Of a stretch of 26,472 nt of DNA, positions 10,678-24,230 are shown one piece after another. The position numbers were made by a program, and so were the translations under genes. The notes under the pieces were generated by a model. It did no database searches and was not told the DNA's origin. It saw only the letters and a list, made by a program, of their open reading frames with translations. Within the stretch, counting starts at the first letter, position 1; each line of letters starts with the position of its first letter. The stretch comes from a virus: IMG/VR virus record IMGVR_UViG_3300010885_062306, positions 1 to 26,472 of that record, one strand, 5' to 3'.

Positions 10678-12222
10678 ATGAAAAAGCAAGTGGATCTAAA
10701 AACCAATCAGGAAGACTATGCCTTGTTTCTACCGGCGTTGAGTGGTTTTTATTCCACTTACGTGGGCAGACAACGCTTTGCAGAGCATGTGCCTGCAGAG
10801 CGTATCCCTGCTGCACTGGGTGGAATGGAAGGACTCAACTTTCTCAACAGCAAAGAAGGTGTCTTCCATTACCCCTGGTGTCTGTATAGCGCAGGACATG
10901 CCAACTTGGACATTGGGTCTAATCCCAAAGAAGATATGGTGCGTACTCGTGAGGAAGGCAGTTTTATCCTGGGCGACTCCGGCGGTTTCCAGATAGCCAA
11001 AGGCGTCTGGGAAGGTGACTGGCGAGCAGGATCAGGTTGTGACAAAGCACAAAAGAAACGTGTGGATGTTCTCAACTGGATGGAAGAGTACATGGACTAT
11101 GGCATGGGCCTGGATATTCCCGGCTGGGTAGGACGTACTCCACGTGGTCGTGAAGCCACAAAGATCACCACATATCAGGAAGCGGTGGATGCCAGCAAGT
11201 ATAACTTTGAATACTGGATGCGCCACCGCAAACACAAGTGCAAATTCCTAACTGTTCTACAGGGTGATAATCACACACAAGCTGATGAATGGTATGCTGA
11301 GATGAAAAAATACTCAGACCCTAAACAGTTTCCAGATGATCATTTCAATGGCTGGGCCATGGGATCACAAAACAAATGCGATCCGCATCTGGTTCTCAAA
11401 CGTCTGGTCACACTAATTTATGATGGACTTCTTGAGTCTGGCAAACAGGATTGGGTGCATTATCTGGGTACCAGCAAGCTGGAATGGGCCATGATGTTCA
11501 CAGATATCCAACGTGCTATCCGCAAGTATCATAATCCCACACTGACCATCAGCTTCGACTGTGCAAGTCCATTCCTTGCCACAGCCAATGGGCAAGTATA
11601 TCACGAAAACCGTCTAACTGATCGTGGCAAATGGATGTACAAAATGAGCAAGTGTGTGGACGACAAGAAGTATGCCACAGACCCCAGGAACTTCCGTGAT
11701 GCTGTTATCCAGGACGGATTGTTCACAGACTTTATCAAGAGCCCCATCATCGATGCCTGTGGTATCAGCGACATCTGCCACTACAAGCCCGGCGATCTCA
11801 ACAAGATCGGTAAGGAAGGCCGCACCAGCTGGGATAGCTTCAGCTATGCACTGCTGATGGGACATAACATCTTCGCTCATATCCGTGCAGTACAGGATGG
11901 CAATGCTCGTTATGATTTCGGTGTTGTTCCGGCCAGTCTGGTGCAGGAGAAGTTCGAACAGAAGTTCTTCCGTGATGTGGTGGACGGTATCTTCAGTGCT
12001 GGCAGCTATGGCAAAGCCATGGAGTATGTGGAAGAACACAACAAGTGGTACATGGACATCGTGGGCAGCAGTGCCAACGGCTTCCTGGGTAAAAAAGCTG
12101 TGAACAGCAGTACCGCTTTCGGCAAGTTTTTCGAAGTGGAAGAGTTTGTTCCAGACACTGCCAGAGATGACAGCGGAATGAACGAAGCCAATCTGGATAA
12201 ACTGGAAGAACTAATTGATTGA
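10678..12222 (+). CDS. dpdA: DpdA-type DNA guanine transglycosylase (TGT superfamily)
   Basis: DpdA enzymes are relatives of tRNA-guanine transglycosylase that exchange guanine in DNA for a 7-deazaguanine. This 514-residue protein shows the TGT barrel landmarks: LGDSGGFQ with Asp100, GLDIPGW with Asp146, FLTVLQGDN (about 190-198), GWAMGSQ (about 225-231), HYLGTSK (261-267) and ISFDCASP with Asp294. The CxCxxC zinc site of bacterial TGT is absent, as I would expect for a DNA-acting relative. FolE, QueD and QueE genes in the same window would supply the precursor. Residues 483-487 (KFFEV, within AFGKFFEVEEF) repeat the polymerase C-terminal peptide. The gene starts 3 bases after the clamp-like gene. 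Which guanines are replaced, and with which derivative, cannot be read here. Confidence 0.85.
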   Translation: MKKQVDLKTNQEDYALFLPALSGFYSTYVGRQRFAEHVPAERIPAALGGMEGLNFLNSKEGVFHYPWCLYSAGHANLDIGSNPKEDMVRTREEGSFILGDSGGFQIAKGVWEGDWRAGSGCDKAQKKRVDVLNWMEEYMDYGMGLDIPGWVGRTPRGREATKITTYQEAVDASKYNFEYWMRHRKHKCKFLTVLQGDNHTQADEWYAEMKKYSDPKQFPDDHFNGWAMGSQNKCDPHLVLKRLVTLIYDGLLESGKQDWVHYLGTSKLEWAMMFTDIQRAIRKYHNPTLTISFDCASPFLATANGQVYHENRLTDRGKWMYKMSKCVDDKKYATDPRNFRDAVIQDGLFTDFIKSPIIDACGISDICHYKPGDLNKIGKEGRTSWDSFSYALLMGHNIFAHIRAVQDGNARYDFGVVPASLVQEKFEQKFFRDVVDGIFSAGSYGKAMEYVEEHNKWYMDIVGSSANGFLGKKAVNSSTAFGKFFEVEEFVPDTARDDSGMNEANLDKLEELID

Positions 12223-13926: not shown

Positions 13927-14706
13927 ATGAGCAAAAAACAAAACAAAAGAGTAGTACTAGTAACAGGTGGCTTCGATCCACTACACAGCGGACACATCAA
14001 ATATATCACAGAAGCAGCCAAGCTGGGTGACACTCTGGTAGTAGGCGTCAACAGCGACGCCTGGTTGACCAGGAAAAAAGGTCGTCCTTTCATGCCCTGG
14101 CTGGAACGTGCGTCAGTTATCGATGCACTTAAACCAGTGGATGTGGTCATCGACTTCAACGATGACAACAACAGCAGCGCACATGCTATCCAGCAGGTGC
14201 TGGACATGTATCCAGATGCCACTATCGTGTATGCCAATGGTGGTGATCGCGGGCAGGGCAATATTCCAGAACAGGATCTGATCGATAACCCCAGGCTGGA
14301 ATATGTGTTTGGTGTGGGCGGTGATGACAAGGCCAACAGCAGCAGTTGGATCCTGCGTAACTGGCAAGCACCACGTACTCAACGCATCTGGGGGCATTAT
14401 GATGTGCTGACAGAATATCCAGACGTCAAGTTGAAAGAACTGGTGGTGGAACCTGGTCGTTGTCTCAGCTATCAGCGTCACTTCCAGCGTAGTGAAGTGT
14501 GGTTTGTTCGTTCAGGTGTAGCACGTATCATCTATAATTTTGGTGATCGTGAGTACACTGAGATCATCAACAAGCATGGTGTGTTCGTGATCCCACAGGA
14601 AGGTTGGCATCAGCTGATCAATCCTGGTGCGGAACCACTGCACATCATCGAAATCCAGTATGGCGATGCCTGCCTGGAAGAAGATATCGAGAGAGTCAAT
14701 CAGTGA
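13927..14706 (+). CDS. Nucleotidyltransferase-cupin fusion protein
   Basis: The N-terminal domain (about residues 8-145) is a cytidylyltransferase/RfaE-II-like nucleotidyltransferase: VTGGFDPLHSGHIKYI carries the HxGH site (His20-His23), followed by LVVGVNSDAW. Such enzymes join a sugar- or polyol-phosphate to a nucleotide. The C-terminal domain (about 155-255) is a single cupin of the type II phosphomannose isomerase type: LVVEPGRCLSYQRHFQRSE, SGVARI and VIPQEGWHQLINPG. These isomerise or epimerise sugar phosphates or bind sugars. Together they suggest production of an activated sugar. The stop overlaps the GTG start of the next gene, a glycosyltransferase, by 4 bases, so the product is probably the donor for that enzyme. 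The exact sugar is not readable. Confidence 0.8.
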   Translation: MSKKQNKRVVLVTGGFDPLHSGHIKYITEAAKLGDTLVVGVNSDAWLTRKKGRPFMPWLERASVIDALKPVDVVIDFNDDNNSSAHAIQQVLDMYPDATIVYANGGDRGQGNIPEQDLIDNPRLEYVFGVGGDDKANSSSWILRNWQAPRTQRIWGHYDVLTEYPDVKLKELVVEPGRCLSYQRHFQRSEVWFVRSGVARIIYNFGDREYTEIINKHGVFVIPQEGWHQLINPGAEPLHIIEIQYGDACLEEDIERVNQ

Positions 14707-15776
14707 TCAACAACATCTACATCGTACCCATCGAACCTATCGATCAGCGTTATACCAGGCAATGGTATGATAATATACCTGATATCATAAACAACATCAT
14801 TGAACGTTGGGAGATCGATTATCAGGTCATAACCATCGATGGCGAGCAGCCCAAGACTGGCACCACGACCGGTGCCTTTCTGGATTTTGCGGTAACCAAC
14901 CAGTACAAAGCCAGCCAGACACAGCGTATCGCAGAACTGTTTACTGCTGGCAAAGTACTGCCAGGTGACAAGTTTTTAATCACAGATGCTTGGAACTTTG
15001 CCATCACTGCTATCAGATACATGAGCGATTTGTTGGATATTCCAGTGGAGATACATGGGATCTGGCATGCCGGAGCATATGACCCCACTGACATCTTGGG
15101 CATGAAGATGCAGAAGCCCTGGCCCTGGCGACAGGAAGCTGCCTGGTTCTATGCCTGCGATTACAATTATTATGCCACGGATTTTCACAGGCAGTTGTTT
15201 TTAACAAATCTGGGTATCGACCCCAGCGGTTGGCACAAGGCTGTGCGTTCAGGACAACCACATGACATGATCGTAGACGAGCTGAGGTCATATCGTCAGA
15301 GCAAGCGTGAAAAAACTGTGATGTGGCCACATCGTCTCAATGCCGACAAGCAGCCAGAGATCATGCGTGATGTTGCCAAGCATATGTCGGTGATTGTCAC
15401 GCAGGAACAAGACTGGAGCAAGCAGGAATATTATCAGCAGTTGGGCAAAACCAGTGTGGTGTTCAGTTGCAGCCTGCATGAGAATCTGGGTATCAGTCAG
15501 ATGGAAGGTGTGCTAGCTGGTGCCATACCTGTGGTTCCAGATCGCGCCAGCTACACTGAGATGTATCCTGACATCTTCAAGTATCCCTCTGAGTGGACCA
15601 GCAGTGTAGACAACTATTACAAACACAAGGATCGTATGATTGGGTTGATTGCTGATCGTATGGAAAATTACAATTATTATGCAGATGCACTCAAGGAATG
15701 TGAAAACAATTTGATTGCCAACTATTTAAATGCTAATATAATGATAGGTAAACTCATAGGAAAAAACAGTGACTGA
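14703..15776 (+). CDS. GT-B fold glycosyltransferase
   Basis: I choose GTG 14703, overlapping the previous TGA (GTGA), rather than an in-frame start about 100 bases upstream. The 357-residue protein shows the GT4-like donor-binding end: VFSCSLHENLGISQMEGVLA, then GAIPVVPDRASYTEMYP (about residues 252-288). Before it come WPHRLNADKQPEIM and an Asp-Ala-Trp segment (about 95-105). There is no membrane segment. Its donor is probably made by the preceding nucleotidyltransferase-cupin. It overlaps the FolE gene by 8 bases. The acceptor could be a virion protein, a surface glycan or a modified base; nothing in the sequence decides. It does not resemble the T4 alpha- or beta-glucosyltransferases by eye. 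Confidence 0.7.
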   Translation: MINNIYIVPIEPIDQRYTRQWYDNIPDIINNIIERWEIDYQVITIDGEQPKTGTTTGAFLDFAVTNQYKASQTQRIAELFTAGKVLPGDKFLITDAWNFAITAIRYMSDLLDIPVEIHGIWHAGAYDPTDILGMKMQKPWPWRQEAAWFYACDYNYYATDFHRQLFLTNLGIDPSGWHKAVRSGQPHDMIVDELRSYRQSKREKTVMWPHRLNADKQPEIMRDVAKHMSVIVTQEQDWSKQEYYQQLGKTSVVFSCSLHENLGISQMEGVLAGAIPVVPDRASYTEMYPDIFKYPSEWTSSVDNYYKHKDRMIGLIADRMENYNYYADALKECENNLIANYLNANIMIGKLIGKNSD

Positions 15777-16458
15777 AGTAAGCAAAAAGATTAAACAACG
15801 TCTGGAAGCTGATGGCAAGCGTTATTGGGCTGGTGACAACATCAGCTCATATATCGAGCCAGGTGAAAAAGAACAGCTGATCGATGAATTGAATGCCCGG
15901 TTCGATGCGGTGCTGGATAGTCTAGTGATCGATCGTGAGAACGATCCCAACAGCCATGATACAGGCAGGCGTCTTGCCAAGATGTATGTGAATGAGCTGA
16001 TGCGAGGTCGCTATTATCCAGCACCGGATGCAACCGCTTTTCCCAATGAGATGGAGGATCGCTATGAAGGAATGTTGGTGGTCAGGAGCGAATTGCGTAG
16101 TGTTTGTAGCCACCATCATCAACCTGTCACTGGTGTTGCTTACATCGGTATTATTGCTGCCGATCGCCTTATCGGTCTTAGCAAGTATACTCGTATTGCT
16201 CAATGGTGCGCTCGTCGTGGAACTCTACAAGAAGAGCTGTGTAATGATATCGCGAAAGAGATCATGAAGACCACTGGCAGCAGTAATGTGGGTGTGTATA
16301 TCCAGGCCACACATGGCTGCTGTGAAAACCGTGGCATCATGGCCAAGAGCAGTTTAACACAGACTACCGTGCTAAAGGGCAGCTTCTTTTCAGATCCTGG
16401 CACAAAGAAGGAATTCTTCGACAACATCAAATTGCAACAGGAGTTTGCTTGCAGATGA
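15769..16458 (+). CDS. folE: GTP cyclohydrolase I
   Basis: FolE converts GTP to 7,8-dihydroneopterin triphosphate, the first step of both folate and 7-deazaguanine synthesis. The 229-residue protein has the family signature: SVCSHHHQP with zinc ligand Cys113 and His116, GLSKYTRIAQWCARR, LQEELCNDIA, then HGCCENRG with the second zinc Cys at 184. Length fits the family (E. coli 222). The start is GTG 15769, overlapping the glycosyltransferase by 8 bases, and it overlaps the following gene by 4 bases (ATGA). Together with QueD- and QueE-type genes downstream it is best read as feeding deazaguanine for DNA modification rather than folate. Confidence 0.95.
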   Translation: MTEVSKKIKQRLEADGKRYWAGDNISSYIEPGEKEQLIDELNARFDAVLDSLVIDRENDPNSHDTGRRLAKMYVNELMRGRYYPAPDATAFPNEMEDRYEGMLVVRSELRSVCSHHHQPVTGVAYIGIIAADRLIGLSKYTRIAQWCARRGTLQEELCNDIAKEIMKTTGSSNVGVYIQATHGCCENRGIMAKSSLTQTTVLKGSFFSDPGTKKEFFDNIKLQQEFACR

Positions 16459-17171: not shown

Positions 17172-17669
17172 ATGCAATCAATCACATACAAATATACCAG
17201 CACCAAGGAATACGTGGATGCGTTTCCCTGCGCCTATCGCCAGTGGCGAGCAGACAGCCATTGCAATCTGATCCATGGCTATGCCTTCAGCATGAAGTTC
17301 TACTTTGGAACAAATGATCTGGATGTGCGTAACTGGGCAGCAGATTATGGTGGTCTCAAAGAGCTCAAGAAGATCCTGGAAGATCAATTTGATCATACAT
17401 TGCTTGTGGCTGAAGACGATCCTGAACTGGCAACATTCAAATTGCTACAGGAAAAACACATGGCCAAGCTGACTATCCTGCCCAAGCTGGGTTGTGAAGG
17501 TCTCGCAGATATGCTGTACAAGTATATCAATACTGTTTATATTCCAGACATGTGGGGTCCAGGTGAAGCAGAACGTTTGTGGTGCTATCGCGTGGAAGTG
17601 CGTGAGACACAGGCCAATATGGCATTCCGCGAAGGTCATCGCGAATGGAACGAGGACTTAAATGCCTAA
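17172..17669 (+). CDS. queD: QueD-like 6-carboxytetrahydropterin synthase family protein
   Basis: QueD turns dihydroneopterin triphosphate into 6-carboxytetrahydropterin. This 165-residue protein keeps much of the family: catalytic Cys31 and HG of the HGH motif (SHCNLIHGY), ADYGGLKELKK, FDHTLL with Asp74-His75, a GCEGLADM segment in place of PTxE, and VEVRET with Glu145. Two of the three usual zinc histidines are Tyr: FPCAY (Tyr22 for the FxAAH His) and HGY (Tyr37 for the second HGH His). I recall similar FxCA.RQWRA...C.L.HGY proteins in other phages, so this is probably a phage subfamily rather than a broken gene. Its exact reaction may differ from that of E. coli QueD. It overlaps the next small gene by 8 bases. 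Confidence 0.8.
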   Translation: MQSITYKYTSTKEYVDAFPCAYRQWRADSHCNLIHGYAFSMKFYFGTNDLDVRNWAADYGGLKELKKILEDQFDHTLLVAEDDPELATFKLLQEKHMAKLTILPKLGCEGLADMLYKYINTVYIPDMWGPGEAERLWCYRVEVRETQANMAFREGHREWNEDLNA

Positions 17670-17832
17670 TAGCTGGACTGTAGAGCTAGAAGAAGATAAA
17701 GAAACGGGAGAATTGCTTCTCCCGTTTCCACCAGATTTGCTTGCCCAGATGGGCTGGACACCAGGCACTGAATTATGGTGGCAAGACAACGCTGACGGCA
17801 CAGTCAGCATAAGAGAGAAGAAACATGAGTGA
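17662..17832 (+). CDS. Small AbrB/MazE-like phage protein (56 aa)
   Basis: ATG 17662 overlaps the QueD-like stop by 8 bases, and the TGA at 17830-17832 overlaps the FTR1-like start by 8 bases. The product reads W.VELEED.ETGELLLPFP.DLL..MGW.PGTELWW.DN.DGT.SIR, the layout of a swapped-hairpin AbrB/MazE-type domain (E.G.L.LP..LL..LGW..GD.L). Such small proteins are common in phages. DNA binding is known for AbrB relatives but not shown for these. Its codons 14-23 form a perfect 12-bp inverted repeat (17701-17728). Coupling on both sides suggests it helps set expression of the cluster, which is inference. Confidence 0.65.
   Translation: MPNSWTVELEEDKETGELLLPFPPDLLAQMGWTPGTELWWQDNADGTVSIREKKHE
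17701..17728 (+). repeat. Perfect 12-bp hairpin inside the small AbrB-like gene
   Basis: GAAACGGGAGAA (17701-17712), loop TTGC, then TTCTCCCGTTTC (17717-17728). The stem is perfect with a 4-base loop. On the + strand no T-run follows (CCACCAG). On the - strand it would be followed by TTTATCTTCTTC, but no - strand gene uses it. It could slow or protect mRNA between the QueD-like gene and the permease/QueE genes. Confidence 0.7.
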
Positions 17833-18421
17833 TATTTTAAGCACTATACTAGTTGTTTGCAGAGAAGGTTTCGAAAGTGTCCTGCTCACAGCGTTGATTT
17901 TGAAGTTTTTACCAGAAGATCTAAAACCCCAATATTACATAAACTTTGCCATCTGCTGGATTGTCAGTCTAGCACTGGGACTGTATGCTGCCAGTGAGTT
18001 TCACGAATATATGGAACAGTGGGAGCCAGTTATAAACATCGTAACTGGTGTGGTACTGATCTATATCTTTACCACCAGCAAGGCTGTTTACAACCACGCT
18101 CGTGAACACGCTGAGGAAATCACCACAGCTACCTGGATCAGCACACATATCACCATATCGCTGATTGTATTGCGAGAAGCTGCTGAAAGTACCATATTTC
18201 TTGCTGGTAACATCAGCCGCGGCTGGGACAACACCCTAATAGGTCTAGCCATTGGCGGCGTATTATTGGTAGCTTTGTTAAAGTCAGCAAACCAATTGGG
18301 TAAAGCACTAGTAAACAAAATAATCTTCCGTGTGGTTGGATTTAGCTTGCTTTTATTAGGTGCTTATTATATAATAGACGGTATAAACGACATCATTATC
18401 AGGATAGCAGAGTACATTTAA
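17825..18421 (+). CDS. FTR1/OFeT-family iron permease-like membrane protein
   Basis: FTR1-type permeases move iron across the inner membrane. This 198-residue protein has six or seven hydrophobic segments (about 4-28, 38-58, 68-84, 104-128, 136-156, 165-190). It carries both diagnostic REXXE motifs inside membrane helices: REGFE (13-17) and REAAE (117-121, in SLIVLREAAESTIFLAG). The helix after the second motif is Gly-rich, as in the family. It is shorter than usual (about 270-280) and lacks large loops, but both halves are present. It overlaps the upstream gene by 8 bases and shares one base with the QueE start (TAATG). It is therefore integrated in the deazaguanine operon. QueE needs an iron-sulfur cluster, which gives a possible reason; this is inference. 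I know of no well-described phage example. Confidence 0.8.
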   Translation: MSDILSTILVVCREGFESVLLTALILKFLPEDLKPQYYINFAICWIVSLALGLYAASEFHEYMEQWEPVINIVTGVVLIYIFTTSKAVYNHAREHAEEITTATWISTHITISLIVLREAAESTIFLAGNISRGWDNTLIGLAIGGVLLVALLKSANQLGKALVNKIIFRVVGFSLLLLGAYYIIDGINDIIIRIAEYI

Positions 18422-19269
18422 TGTTCGGAAAAAATGAAATAATCGGAAAAAGTTACTTTAATCAAGCTGCTGACGATCAGTTATTTGTCACTAGCATATT
18501 CTATACCCTACAAGGCGAAGGTCCTTATCGTGGTGAGCCAGCAATCTTTGTTAGACTAGCTAAATGCAATCTGGCATGTAGCTTCTGTGACACCTACTTT
18601 GACGGTGGTGACTGGCTGACATTTGATGATGTGTATGATCGCATCATGGAAGCTGCTGTCAAATATTTTGGTGGCGAGGTACCTGGATGGTTTGATCAAA
18701 AGGTAGGATTAGTCATTACTGGTGGTGAGCCTATGCTGCAAAAGAATCTGGGTATATTCCTGGAAAAAGTCAAAAACTTGTTTGCCTGGACCCAGATTGA
18801 AAGCAATGGCACAGTGTGGCAGGATATTCCTGCAGAAACTACACTGGTATGTAGTCCCAAGTGTCTGGAAAAAGATGGCAAACCTGTCAAGTATCTTAAA
18901 CCCAATACAGATGTCATGGAACGTGCAGATTGTCTCAAGTTTGTCATGAACGCAGACCCAGATAGTCCATATAGTGAAATCCCAGATTGGGCACATGAAT
19001 ATGCCAGCGTGGGCAGTGGCAAACAGGTGTTTATCAGTCCCATGAACATCTATAATCGTGAGCCTAAGAACAGTAAGCAGATGCGTAGCACCAAGAACGA
19101 CATCAGCATGGAAGAGCGCAGTGCAGTAGATGAAGTCATCAGCTTCTGGGAAGAAGGTCTATTAAATATGACTGAGAACCAGAAGAACCATGAGTACACC
19201 GCACAGTATTGTGCTCGCAATGGTTTCACTTTAAACTTGCAGATACACTTGTATGCAAGTTTAGCCTAA
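18421..19269 (+). CDS. queE: 7-carboxy-7-deazaguanine synthase (radical SAM)
   Basis: QueE rearranges 6-carboxytetrahydropterin into 7-carboxy-7-deazaguanine with SAM and a [4Fe-4S] cluster. The protein has YTLQGEGPYRGEPAIFVRLA near the start, then the cluster motif CNLACSFC (Cys49, Cys53, Cys56; CX3CX2C) followed by DT. ITGGEPMLQ (about 100-108) and ESNGT (about 122-126) follow, all typical of the family. At 282 residues it is longer than most QueE proteins (about 210-245); the extra length is mainly in the C-terminal third, after VFISPMNIYNREPKN. The start ATG shares its first base with the stop of the iron permease gene. Its product is the likely base, or base precursor, used by the DpdA-like enzyme. 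Confidence 0.92.
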   Translation: MFGKNEIIGKSYFNQAADDQLFVTSIFYTLQGEGPYRGEPAIFVRLAKCNLACSFCDTYFDGGDWLTFDDVYDRIMEAAVKYFGGEVPGWFDQKVGLVITGGEPMLQKNLGIFLEKVKNLFAWTQIESNGTVWQDIPAETTLVCSPKCLEKDGKPVKYLKPNTDVMERADCLKFVMNADPDSPYSEIPDWAHEYASVGSGKQVFISPMNIYNREPKNSKQMRSTKNDISMEERSAVDEVISFWEEGLLNMTENQKNHEYTAQYCARNGFTLNLQIHLYASLA

Positions 19270-19560: not shown

Positions 19561-19869
19561 ATGCGTAAACTAGCAATCGCTACAGCAGTAATTGGAATTT
19601 TAGCATCAGCTTCAGCAGCCAATGCTGACTATTATGGACATCGACACGGTGGATATCACGGTGGTGGTGGATATCGCGGTGGCTGGGCTGCACCACTGAT
19701 CGGTGGACTGATTGTGGGTGGCATCGTGGGAGGTGCATTAGCACAACCACAACCTTATTATGCTCCACCTCCCGCATATCGCACAGAATGTCAGATCGTT
19801 CCAGTTTACGACCGTTATGGTTACTATCGCGGTGAACGTCGCGAGTGCTACCAAGTACCCAATTATTGA
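19561..19869 (+). CDS. Secreted glycine-rich protein with glycine zipper
   Basis: The first 22 residues (MRKLAIATAVIGILASASAA, then NA) form a classic Sec signal peptide with a likely cut before DYYGH. The mature part (about 80 residues) has a His/Gly/Tyr-rich stretch, then APLIGGLIVGGIVGGALA, a glycine-zipper-like segment that can enter membranes. It ends in a Tyr/Pro-rich tail with two Cys (CQIVPVYDRYGYYRGERREC) that could pair in the periplasm. It resembles small secreted proteins of proteobacteria more than phage proteins, so transfer from a host is likely. A strong promoter and ribosome site point to high early expression. Possible roles are superinfection exclusion or envelope change; both are inference. 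Confidence 0.75.
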   Translation: MRKLAIATAVIGILASASAANADYYGHRHGGYHGGGGYRGGWAAPLIGGLIVGGIVGGALAQPQPYYAPPPAYRTECQIVPVYDRYGYYRGERRECYQVPNY

Positions 19870-22733: not shown

Positions 22734-24230
22734 ATGACAGATTGTGTAATTTTAAACGGTTCGTCGATGACAGGACCAACAGCTAAACAGGCCGGCAGTT
22801 ATCGTATCGCCACGCAGTTGCGTGATGCTGATTTCAGCTGCCAGGTTATTGACATAAGCGGTTTTTATGAATATAAATTATTTTTCCATTATATTAAAAA
22901 ATTCATCACAGACAAAACTATTTGGCTTGGTATAAGCAATGTATTTTTGTTTAAAATTTGTGAAGTGAGTTGGCCTATGACAATTCAAAGGCAAGAAAAT
23001 AATATCATTCCCACAGAAGATCAAAAACAAAAATTGAATGATTTTTTTGCTACTTTTACTGCTGATCTTAAAAAAGCATATCCCAATTTAAAATTGTGCT
23101 ATAGTGATGCAGGAAAAAGAATAAGCATAACTCATCACGGTTGGACATGTTTTCAGGGTTTTGTGGACAAAGAGATAATAGATTTTACGCATGACTGTTT
23201 GGCTGATAAAAAATTAAAACTAAACATCTATAAAAAAGAATATCCTGAATTTAATACTAGTAAAATACACTGGTTGCCTCAAGACATTTGTAATAATGAA
23301 AAAGTATTGCCTATCGAAATCAGTCGCGGCTGTATTTTCAAATGTGCTTTTTGTGCTTTTCCGCTCAATGGCAAAAAGAAACTGGATTATATTAAAGATG
23401 GCAACACTCTAAGACAAGAGCTGATATACAACTATGACAATTATGGTATCACGGATTATATCTTTACTGATGACACATTGAATGATAGTGTGGAAAAATT
23501 ATTAGACATTAAAAAAGTATTGGATAGTTTGCCCTTTAGGATCAACTTTGTCAGCTATCTGAGATTGGACCTGATGGTAACTAAACCAGAAATGGCAGAT
23601 ATTTTAGCTGAAATGGGAATGATCAGCGCACACTTTGGAATAGAGACTGCCGACAAACAGGACGGGCTTTTGATTGGCAAAGGAATGGATTTTCAAAGAC
23701 AAATAGACTACCTAAATCAAATAAAACAAACATCATGGAAAAATATCACAACTCGTGCATCTTTTATCATGGGTTTTCCCAATGATAGTTGGGAAAAAAT
23801 CTATAAATTGATAGATTGGATCAAAAGAGAAGATAACCCTATAGATGAAAATCTTCCTATCACGCTGGCTATAGTACACAAAGAATTCCAACATAGTCGT
23901 CATTTATGGTTTAGTAATATAGATATAAATTATGAACAAATGGGATATGAATTTACAGAAAAAGATGGTAAACCAACATGGTACAACCATAAATCAGGAC
24001 TTTATGAAATAGATCTATTTAATTATCAAAAAATTGTTAGTAAAGAAATAATACCTAACAGCAAATATACAGTATTTGATTTAATGGATATGTATAATTT
24101 AGGTATTGACAAACAAGATCTTATGACTATGAATAGACGTCAAATCCAAGAAAAATACGATATTCCAGCGTTAAAAAAACAGATGAGCTTGAATTATTAT
24201 CGTAACCTTATGAAATATAAGGCAAAATAA
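22734..24230 (+). CDS. Radical SAM protein, possibly B12-binding type
   Basis: The 498-residue protein has the radical SAM cluster motif CIFKCAFC (Cys200, Cys204, Cys207; CX3CX2C) preceded by EISRGC. YIFTDDTLN, LRLDLM, then HFGIET and ASFIMGFPN follow, in the usual barrel order. Residues 1-190 include AGSYRIATQLRDADFSCQVI, which resembles the start of the B12-binding domains of B12-dependent radical SAM proteins, but the base-binding DxHxxG motif is not visible. Such enzymes methylate or rearrange unreactive carbons; the substrate here is unknown. The gene is AT-rich and has no Shine-Dalgarno (context ATAATTACCAT before ATG). It looks like a later acquisition. It is not a QueE and not a standard nucleotide-synthesis enzyme. 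Confidence 0.8.
   Translation: MTDCVILNGSSMTGPTAKQAGSYRIATQLRDADFSCQVIDISGFYEYKLFFHYIKKFITDKTIWLGISNVFLFKICEVSWPMTIQRQENNIIPTEDQKQKLNDFFATFTADLKKAYPNLKLCYSDAGKRISITHHGWTCFQGFVDKEIIDFTHDCLADKKLKLNIYKKEYPEFNTSKIHWLPQDICNNEKVLPIEISRGCIFKCAFCAFPLNGKKKLDYIKDGNTLRQELIYNYDNYGITDYIFTDDTLNDSVEKLLDIKKVLDSLPFRINFVSYLRLDLMVTKPEMADILAEMGMISAHFGIETADKQDGLLIGKGMDFQRQIDYLNQIKQTSWKNITTRASFIMGFPNDSWEKIYKLIDWIKREDNPIDENLPITLAIVHKEFQHSRHLWFSNIDINYEQMGYEFTEKDGKPTWYNHKSGLYEIDLFNYQKIVSKEIIPNSKYTVFDLMDMYNLGIDKQDLMTMNRRQIQEKYDIPALKKQMSLNYYRNLMKYKAK

Follow-up and report, generated by a model that had tools for sequence, protein, structure and literature searches.

A compact FTR1-type permease gene directly before queE in phage contigs: a candidate accessory metal transporter

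Among the 7-deazaguanine pathway genes of a 26.5-kb virus record (26,472 nt, analysed as a whole and referred to here as the window) lies a gene for a compact membrane protein related to the iron permease FTR1. On balance, we favor this protein being a phage accessory metal permease of the FTR1/EfeU superfamily, the metal probably being iron, that would act on host iron supply generally. FolE, QueD and QueE are all encoded in the window, and Pfam and PHROG matches of the FolE, QueD-like and QueE-like neighbors (Table 1) corroborated the placement of the permease within a que gene run. The preliminary description of the open reading frame—a 198-aa membrane protein with both REXXE motifs—was accurate as to coordinates and neighbors, and also as to the overlaps: the permease start at 17825 precedes the end of the AbrB-like ORF at 17832, giving an 8-base overlap, and its last base (18421) doubles as the A of the queE ATG, a 1-base overlap within TAATG. 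The label of the AbrB-like ORF (17662-17832) reflects a likeness noted by eye; no Pfam match was obtained for it.

Table 1 Features of the permease neighborhood (window coordinates).
Feature	Coordinates	Strand	Description
FolE, GTP cyclohydrolase I	15769..16458	+	PF01227, 129 bits
QueD-like 6-carboxytetrahydropterin synthase	17172..17669	+	PTPS, 56 bits
AbrB-like small ORF	17662..17832	+	56 aa; PHROG_661, unknown function; directly upstream of permease
FTR1-type compact membrane permease	17825..18421	+	198 aa; six predicted helices; REGFE 13-17, REAAE 117-121
QueE-like radical SAM 7-carboxy-7-deazaguanine synthase	18421..19269	+	PHROG_2076, 176 bits
Predicted secreted His/Gly-rich protein	19561..19869	+	In close relatives with or without permease

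Peptide-pattern scans of 2.9 million IMG/VR contigs, which catch near relatives only and may miss distant copies, placed the permease in four contigs: the window, L002 and L003 (92% identity each) and L168 (54%). All four copies sit between an AbrB-like ORF and queE, directly before the latter, with the start/stop overlap between permease and queE present in the window, L002 and L003. REGFE and REAAE are retained throughout; a third motif, REHAE (residues 93-97), is variable (KEHAE in L003, MEHVK in L168). The gene is real and under strong purifying selection, with dN/dS values of 0.02-0.05 for the close copies (one pair being saturated at synonymous sites) that resemble those of queD and queE. 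A chance occurrence of the REXXE motifs is ruled out by this selection, by the profile match presented below and by composition-preserving shuffles of the permease, only 2.5e-5 of which contained a REXXE pair 90-125 residues apart. Base composition was uninformative with respect to a recent transfer, the GC content of the permease (0.41) being near that of queE (0.43).

The preliminary description assigned the protein to the FTR1 family, and the profile searches agreed. Pfam FTR1 (PF03239) matched the window permease with 27.3 bits (cut-off 25.3), albeit over residues 6-54 only; among the other phage copies, L002 scored above the cut-off (28.6), and L003 (24.7) and L168 (19.2) fell below it. 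An independent profile, built from bacterial proteins retrieved with PF03239 (29 sequences, none from phages), aligned to residues 5-180 with 33 bits (best of 2000 shuffles, 13), and a profile from a larger set aligned to residues 5-189 with 57 bits (best shuffle, about 13). In line with this, hhalign paired the permease with bacterial FTR1 over residues 2-190 (probability 98%, E 1.3e-13). The phage REXXE motifs align with the bacterial ones, and all phage copies retain their Arg, Glu and Glu residues, which are 94-100% conserved in 68 bacterial homologues; a difference lies in the second motif, where the permease has Ala at a position that is Gly in 97% of the bacterial proteins. The more specific models scored far lower than they require: TIGR00145 reached 30.4 of 303.8 bits (residues 5-186), and NF041756 (EfeU) 19.6 of 255. 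Because of these profile and hhalign matches, the conserved motifs and the shortfall against TIGR00145, we classify the permease, at the level of sequence, as a true but highly divergent FTR1 superfamily member and not a canonical EfeU.

Hydropathy analysis located REGFE in helix 1 and REAAE in helix 4. EfeU has seven helices. All four phage copies showed six hydropathy peaks, and lysines and arginines are distributed seven to two between the sides of the membrane, indicating an N-out orientation; peaks and charge bias together point to a six-helix protein whose two termini face outward, so that the seventh helix seems to be lacking. Structure prediction gave a first model with a pLDDT of 46 and a second of moderate confidence (pLDDT 65). 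The latter indeed comprised six long helices, yet a Foldseek search of PDB and viral libraries returned no significant match for it, and no FTR1 structure was found in PDB for comparison. A general resemblance of the second model to halves of large transporters, as seen with VIA-align, did not exceed the level usual for helical bundles.

What might such a permease be for? One explanation, put forward in the preliminary description alongside a broader change of iron flow in the cell, is that it is dedicated to QueE, keeping the [4Fe-4S] cluster of the phage enzyme filled during infection. Consistent with this are the overlapping adjacency of the two genes in the window, L002 and L003, the CxxxCxxC motif retained by the window QueE, and L168, where the adjacency is maintained although QueE is of another lineage (the L168 QueE is under 30% identical to the window QueE and mostly 43-60% identical to the QueE encoded beside sampled QueD genes). 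However, QueE proteins some 90% identical to that of the window occur without a permease: in L010 (91%) a divergent AbrB-like ORF stands between queD and queE, and in L011 (90%) queD directly precedes queE. L130 likewise lacks the permease, its queD being followed by an AbrB-like ORF (63%) and a queE of the other type. No further copy turned up in the 77 QueE loci or the 80 best QueD loci, together about 150 related loci of the que pathway, and no multi-helix protein stood directly upstream of queE in the other sampled QueE loci. The position directly before queE held for four of four permease copies; all other sampled QueE and QueD loci lack the gene. Common ancestry of the site would account for the adjacency, and the other phage FTR1 that we recovered (L252, see below) lies on a contig in which no radical SAM gene was found. 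Since L010, L011 and L130 do without the permease and the QueE of L168 is of another lineage, the permease is an accessory gene of this site that has been gained or lost more than once and is not required for QueE. The link between QueE and iron is therefore weak, and supply of QueE alone is unlikely. Because this operon, which makes a modified DNA base, occurs without the permease in most sister phages, the permease probably has a broad effect on iron entry into the infected cell rather than serving one enzyme. As a separate observation, the two phage QueE lineages exchange at one site after queD within this phage group (L168 1052-1897; L088-L165).

The preliminary description also held that iron permeases are unusual phage cargo, and their rarity was borne out. 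None of 50,697 isolate-phage records contained a convincing relative of the permease. An EfeU query of the same records gave six unannotated partial matches, one at 1e-25 and five weak, which may represent bacterial DNA. A pattern for the second motif matched one IMG/VR contig, L252 (IMGVR_UViG_3300049070_000040), from an unrelated phage; it encodes a 211-aa FTR1-type protein (187-822; PF03239, 45.5 bits), and a lytic transglycosylase domain is encoded in an ORF close by. Both phage-borne proteins carry both REXXE motifs, but that of L252 has seven predicted helices and is 19% identical to the permease. The window DNA polymerase is nearest to that of Sinorhizobium phage Phosso (50%), followed by Agrobacterium phage Atu_ph07 (45%). 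Phosso, the nearest isolate relative, shares the gene order of the window (polymerase, folE, queE, exonuclease-like gene), with no FTR1-annotated gene before queE.

The four phage permeases grouped as a single clade (100/100) in a 72-sequence tree, and the stem leading to this clade measured 3.6 changes per site. The sequences nearest by tree path were compact, 215-aa FTR1 proteins from genomes of about 1.0-1.2 Mb. Owing to the length of the stem, the placement of the phage clade is unsure and a change of substrate within it is possible. No close cellular donor emerged: a first genome scan found no relative, and the best later candidates were distant EfeU and compact FTR1 proteins. Compared with bacterial EfeU/FTR1 (PF03239, TIGR00145, OFeT family), the permease shares both REXXE motifs and their spacing, the residues F125, G140, G144 and F168, the predicted N-out orientation and a full-length profile match, but differs in its length (198 aa as opposed to about 275), the apparently missing seventh helix, an identity of roughly 20-30% and its location in a que gene run, with no EfeO-type M75 partner found in seven related records, each of which may be a fragment. 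The compact bacterial proteins (L181, L182, L183, L186) resemble it in length and motifs; they are about 28% identical to it and, with 91 bits, score far higher against PF03239. The EfeU encoded on a contig titled Bacillus subtilis (L176, JAHREI010000003.1) is nearly identical to that of Pseudochrobactrum, and the genome is probably mislabelled.

The divergence bears on two further explanations. That the permease moves another ion or works in the other direction, i.e. takes up Pb, Mn or Zn or acts in efflux, would fit the Ala in place of the conserved Gly of the second motif and the inclusion of lead transporters in the iron/lead transporter superfamily (PMC2573884); we nonetheless hold it to be quite improbable, as the motif glutamates and arginines are unchanged and the neighborhood gives no sign of another metal. 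No sequence match links the permease to YhhQ/QPTR, which shares with it the tie to phage 7-deazaguanine pathways; paired REXXE motifs are not known from QPTR. A recruited transporter of the 7-deazaguanine precursors preQ0/preQ1 on an FTR1 scaffold is also improbable. In its favor are the position of the permease inside the que gene run, its extreme divergence from iron permeases, the failure to find QueC in eight related records, all fragmentary, and two precedents: uptake of Q precursors has been demonstrated for unrelated transporter families (PMC11130926), and the preQ0 transporter YhhQ occurs in some phages (PMC6884629). Against it, both REXXE motifs, which are of the metal type, are conserved in full, folE, queD and queE are present such that import is not obviously needed, and no known Q-precursor transporter (QPTR, QueT/QrtT) was among the Pfam matches of the permease up to E 0.1.

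Several other genes of the window deserve mention. The ORF at 10678-12222 (514 aa) bears a TGT-like GDSGGFQ motif, recognized by eye; it had no match in Pfam, PHROG or PDB, related proteins in Pseudomonas phage PA5oct and in Phosso are annotated as hypothetical, and it is possibly an unrecognised DpdA-type transglycosylase. The His/Gly-rich protein (19561-19869) contains a glycine-zipper-like stretch, is conserved after queE in close relatives and is possibly a metal binder; its presence in phages without the permease speaks against a specific partnership. A second radical SAM protein (22734-24230; 52 bits) has a GC content of 0.32, which, being much below that of the rest of the window, suggests recent acquisition. 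At 13927-14706, a cytidylyltransferase-like domain is fused to a mannose-6-phosphate-isomerase-type cupin; the next ORF, which has no Pfam match, stands where Phosso has a glycosyltransferase.

Returning to the accessory metal permease that we favor, the following picture can be drawn. The permease would be a phage-specific, shortened and very divergent form, present in a single subgroup among the Phosso-like large phages. It would be made together with the que enzymes through overlapping, coupled translation, and probably be co-transcribed with them. In the inner membrane of the host, its N-terminus would face outward, and the two REXXE motifs, one in helix 1 and one in helix 4, would form the ion path. 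The infection as a whole might then profit from an increased import of iron, or of a different first-row metal, the potential beneficiaries being Fe-S proteins (radical SAM enzymes among them), ribonucleotide reductase and respiration. We infer transport activity, ion, direction and benefit; what the analysis shows is family membership, motif conservation, the predicted topology, purifying selection, operon position and patchy presence. Such a broader change of cellular iron flow, the second suggestion of the preliminary description, is plausible.

Our survey of the open-access literature found no description of a phage-encoded FTR1 permease. More tentatively, though as a possibility to be taken seriously, some large phages may reprogram host iron import by means of their own compact FTR1-type permeases, which would form a new class of auxiliary genes, expressed along with DNA-modification enzymes and acquired more than once, as also in L252. 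In many waters, bacterial growth is iron-limited; by supplying a permease for this metal, a phage would influence the metal economy of its host at the membrane. In addition, the six-helix, shortened form would offer a test of the minimal part of the FTR1 fold that transport needs.
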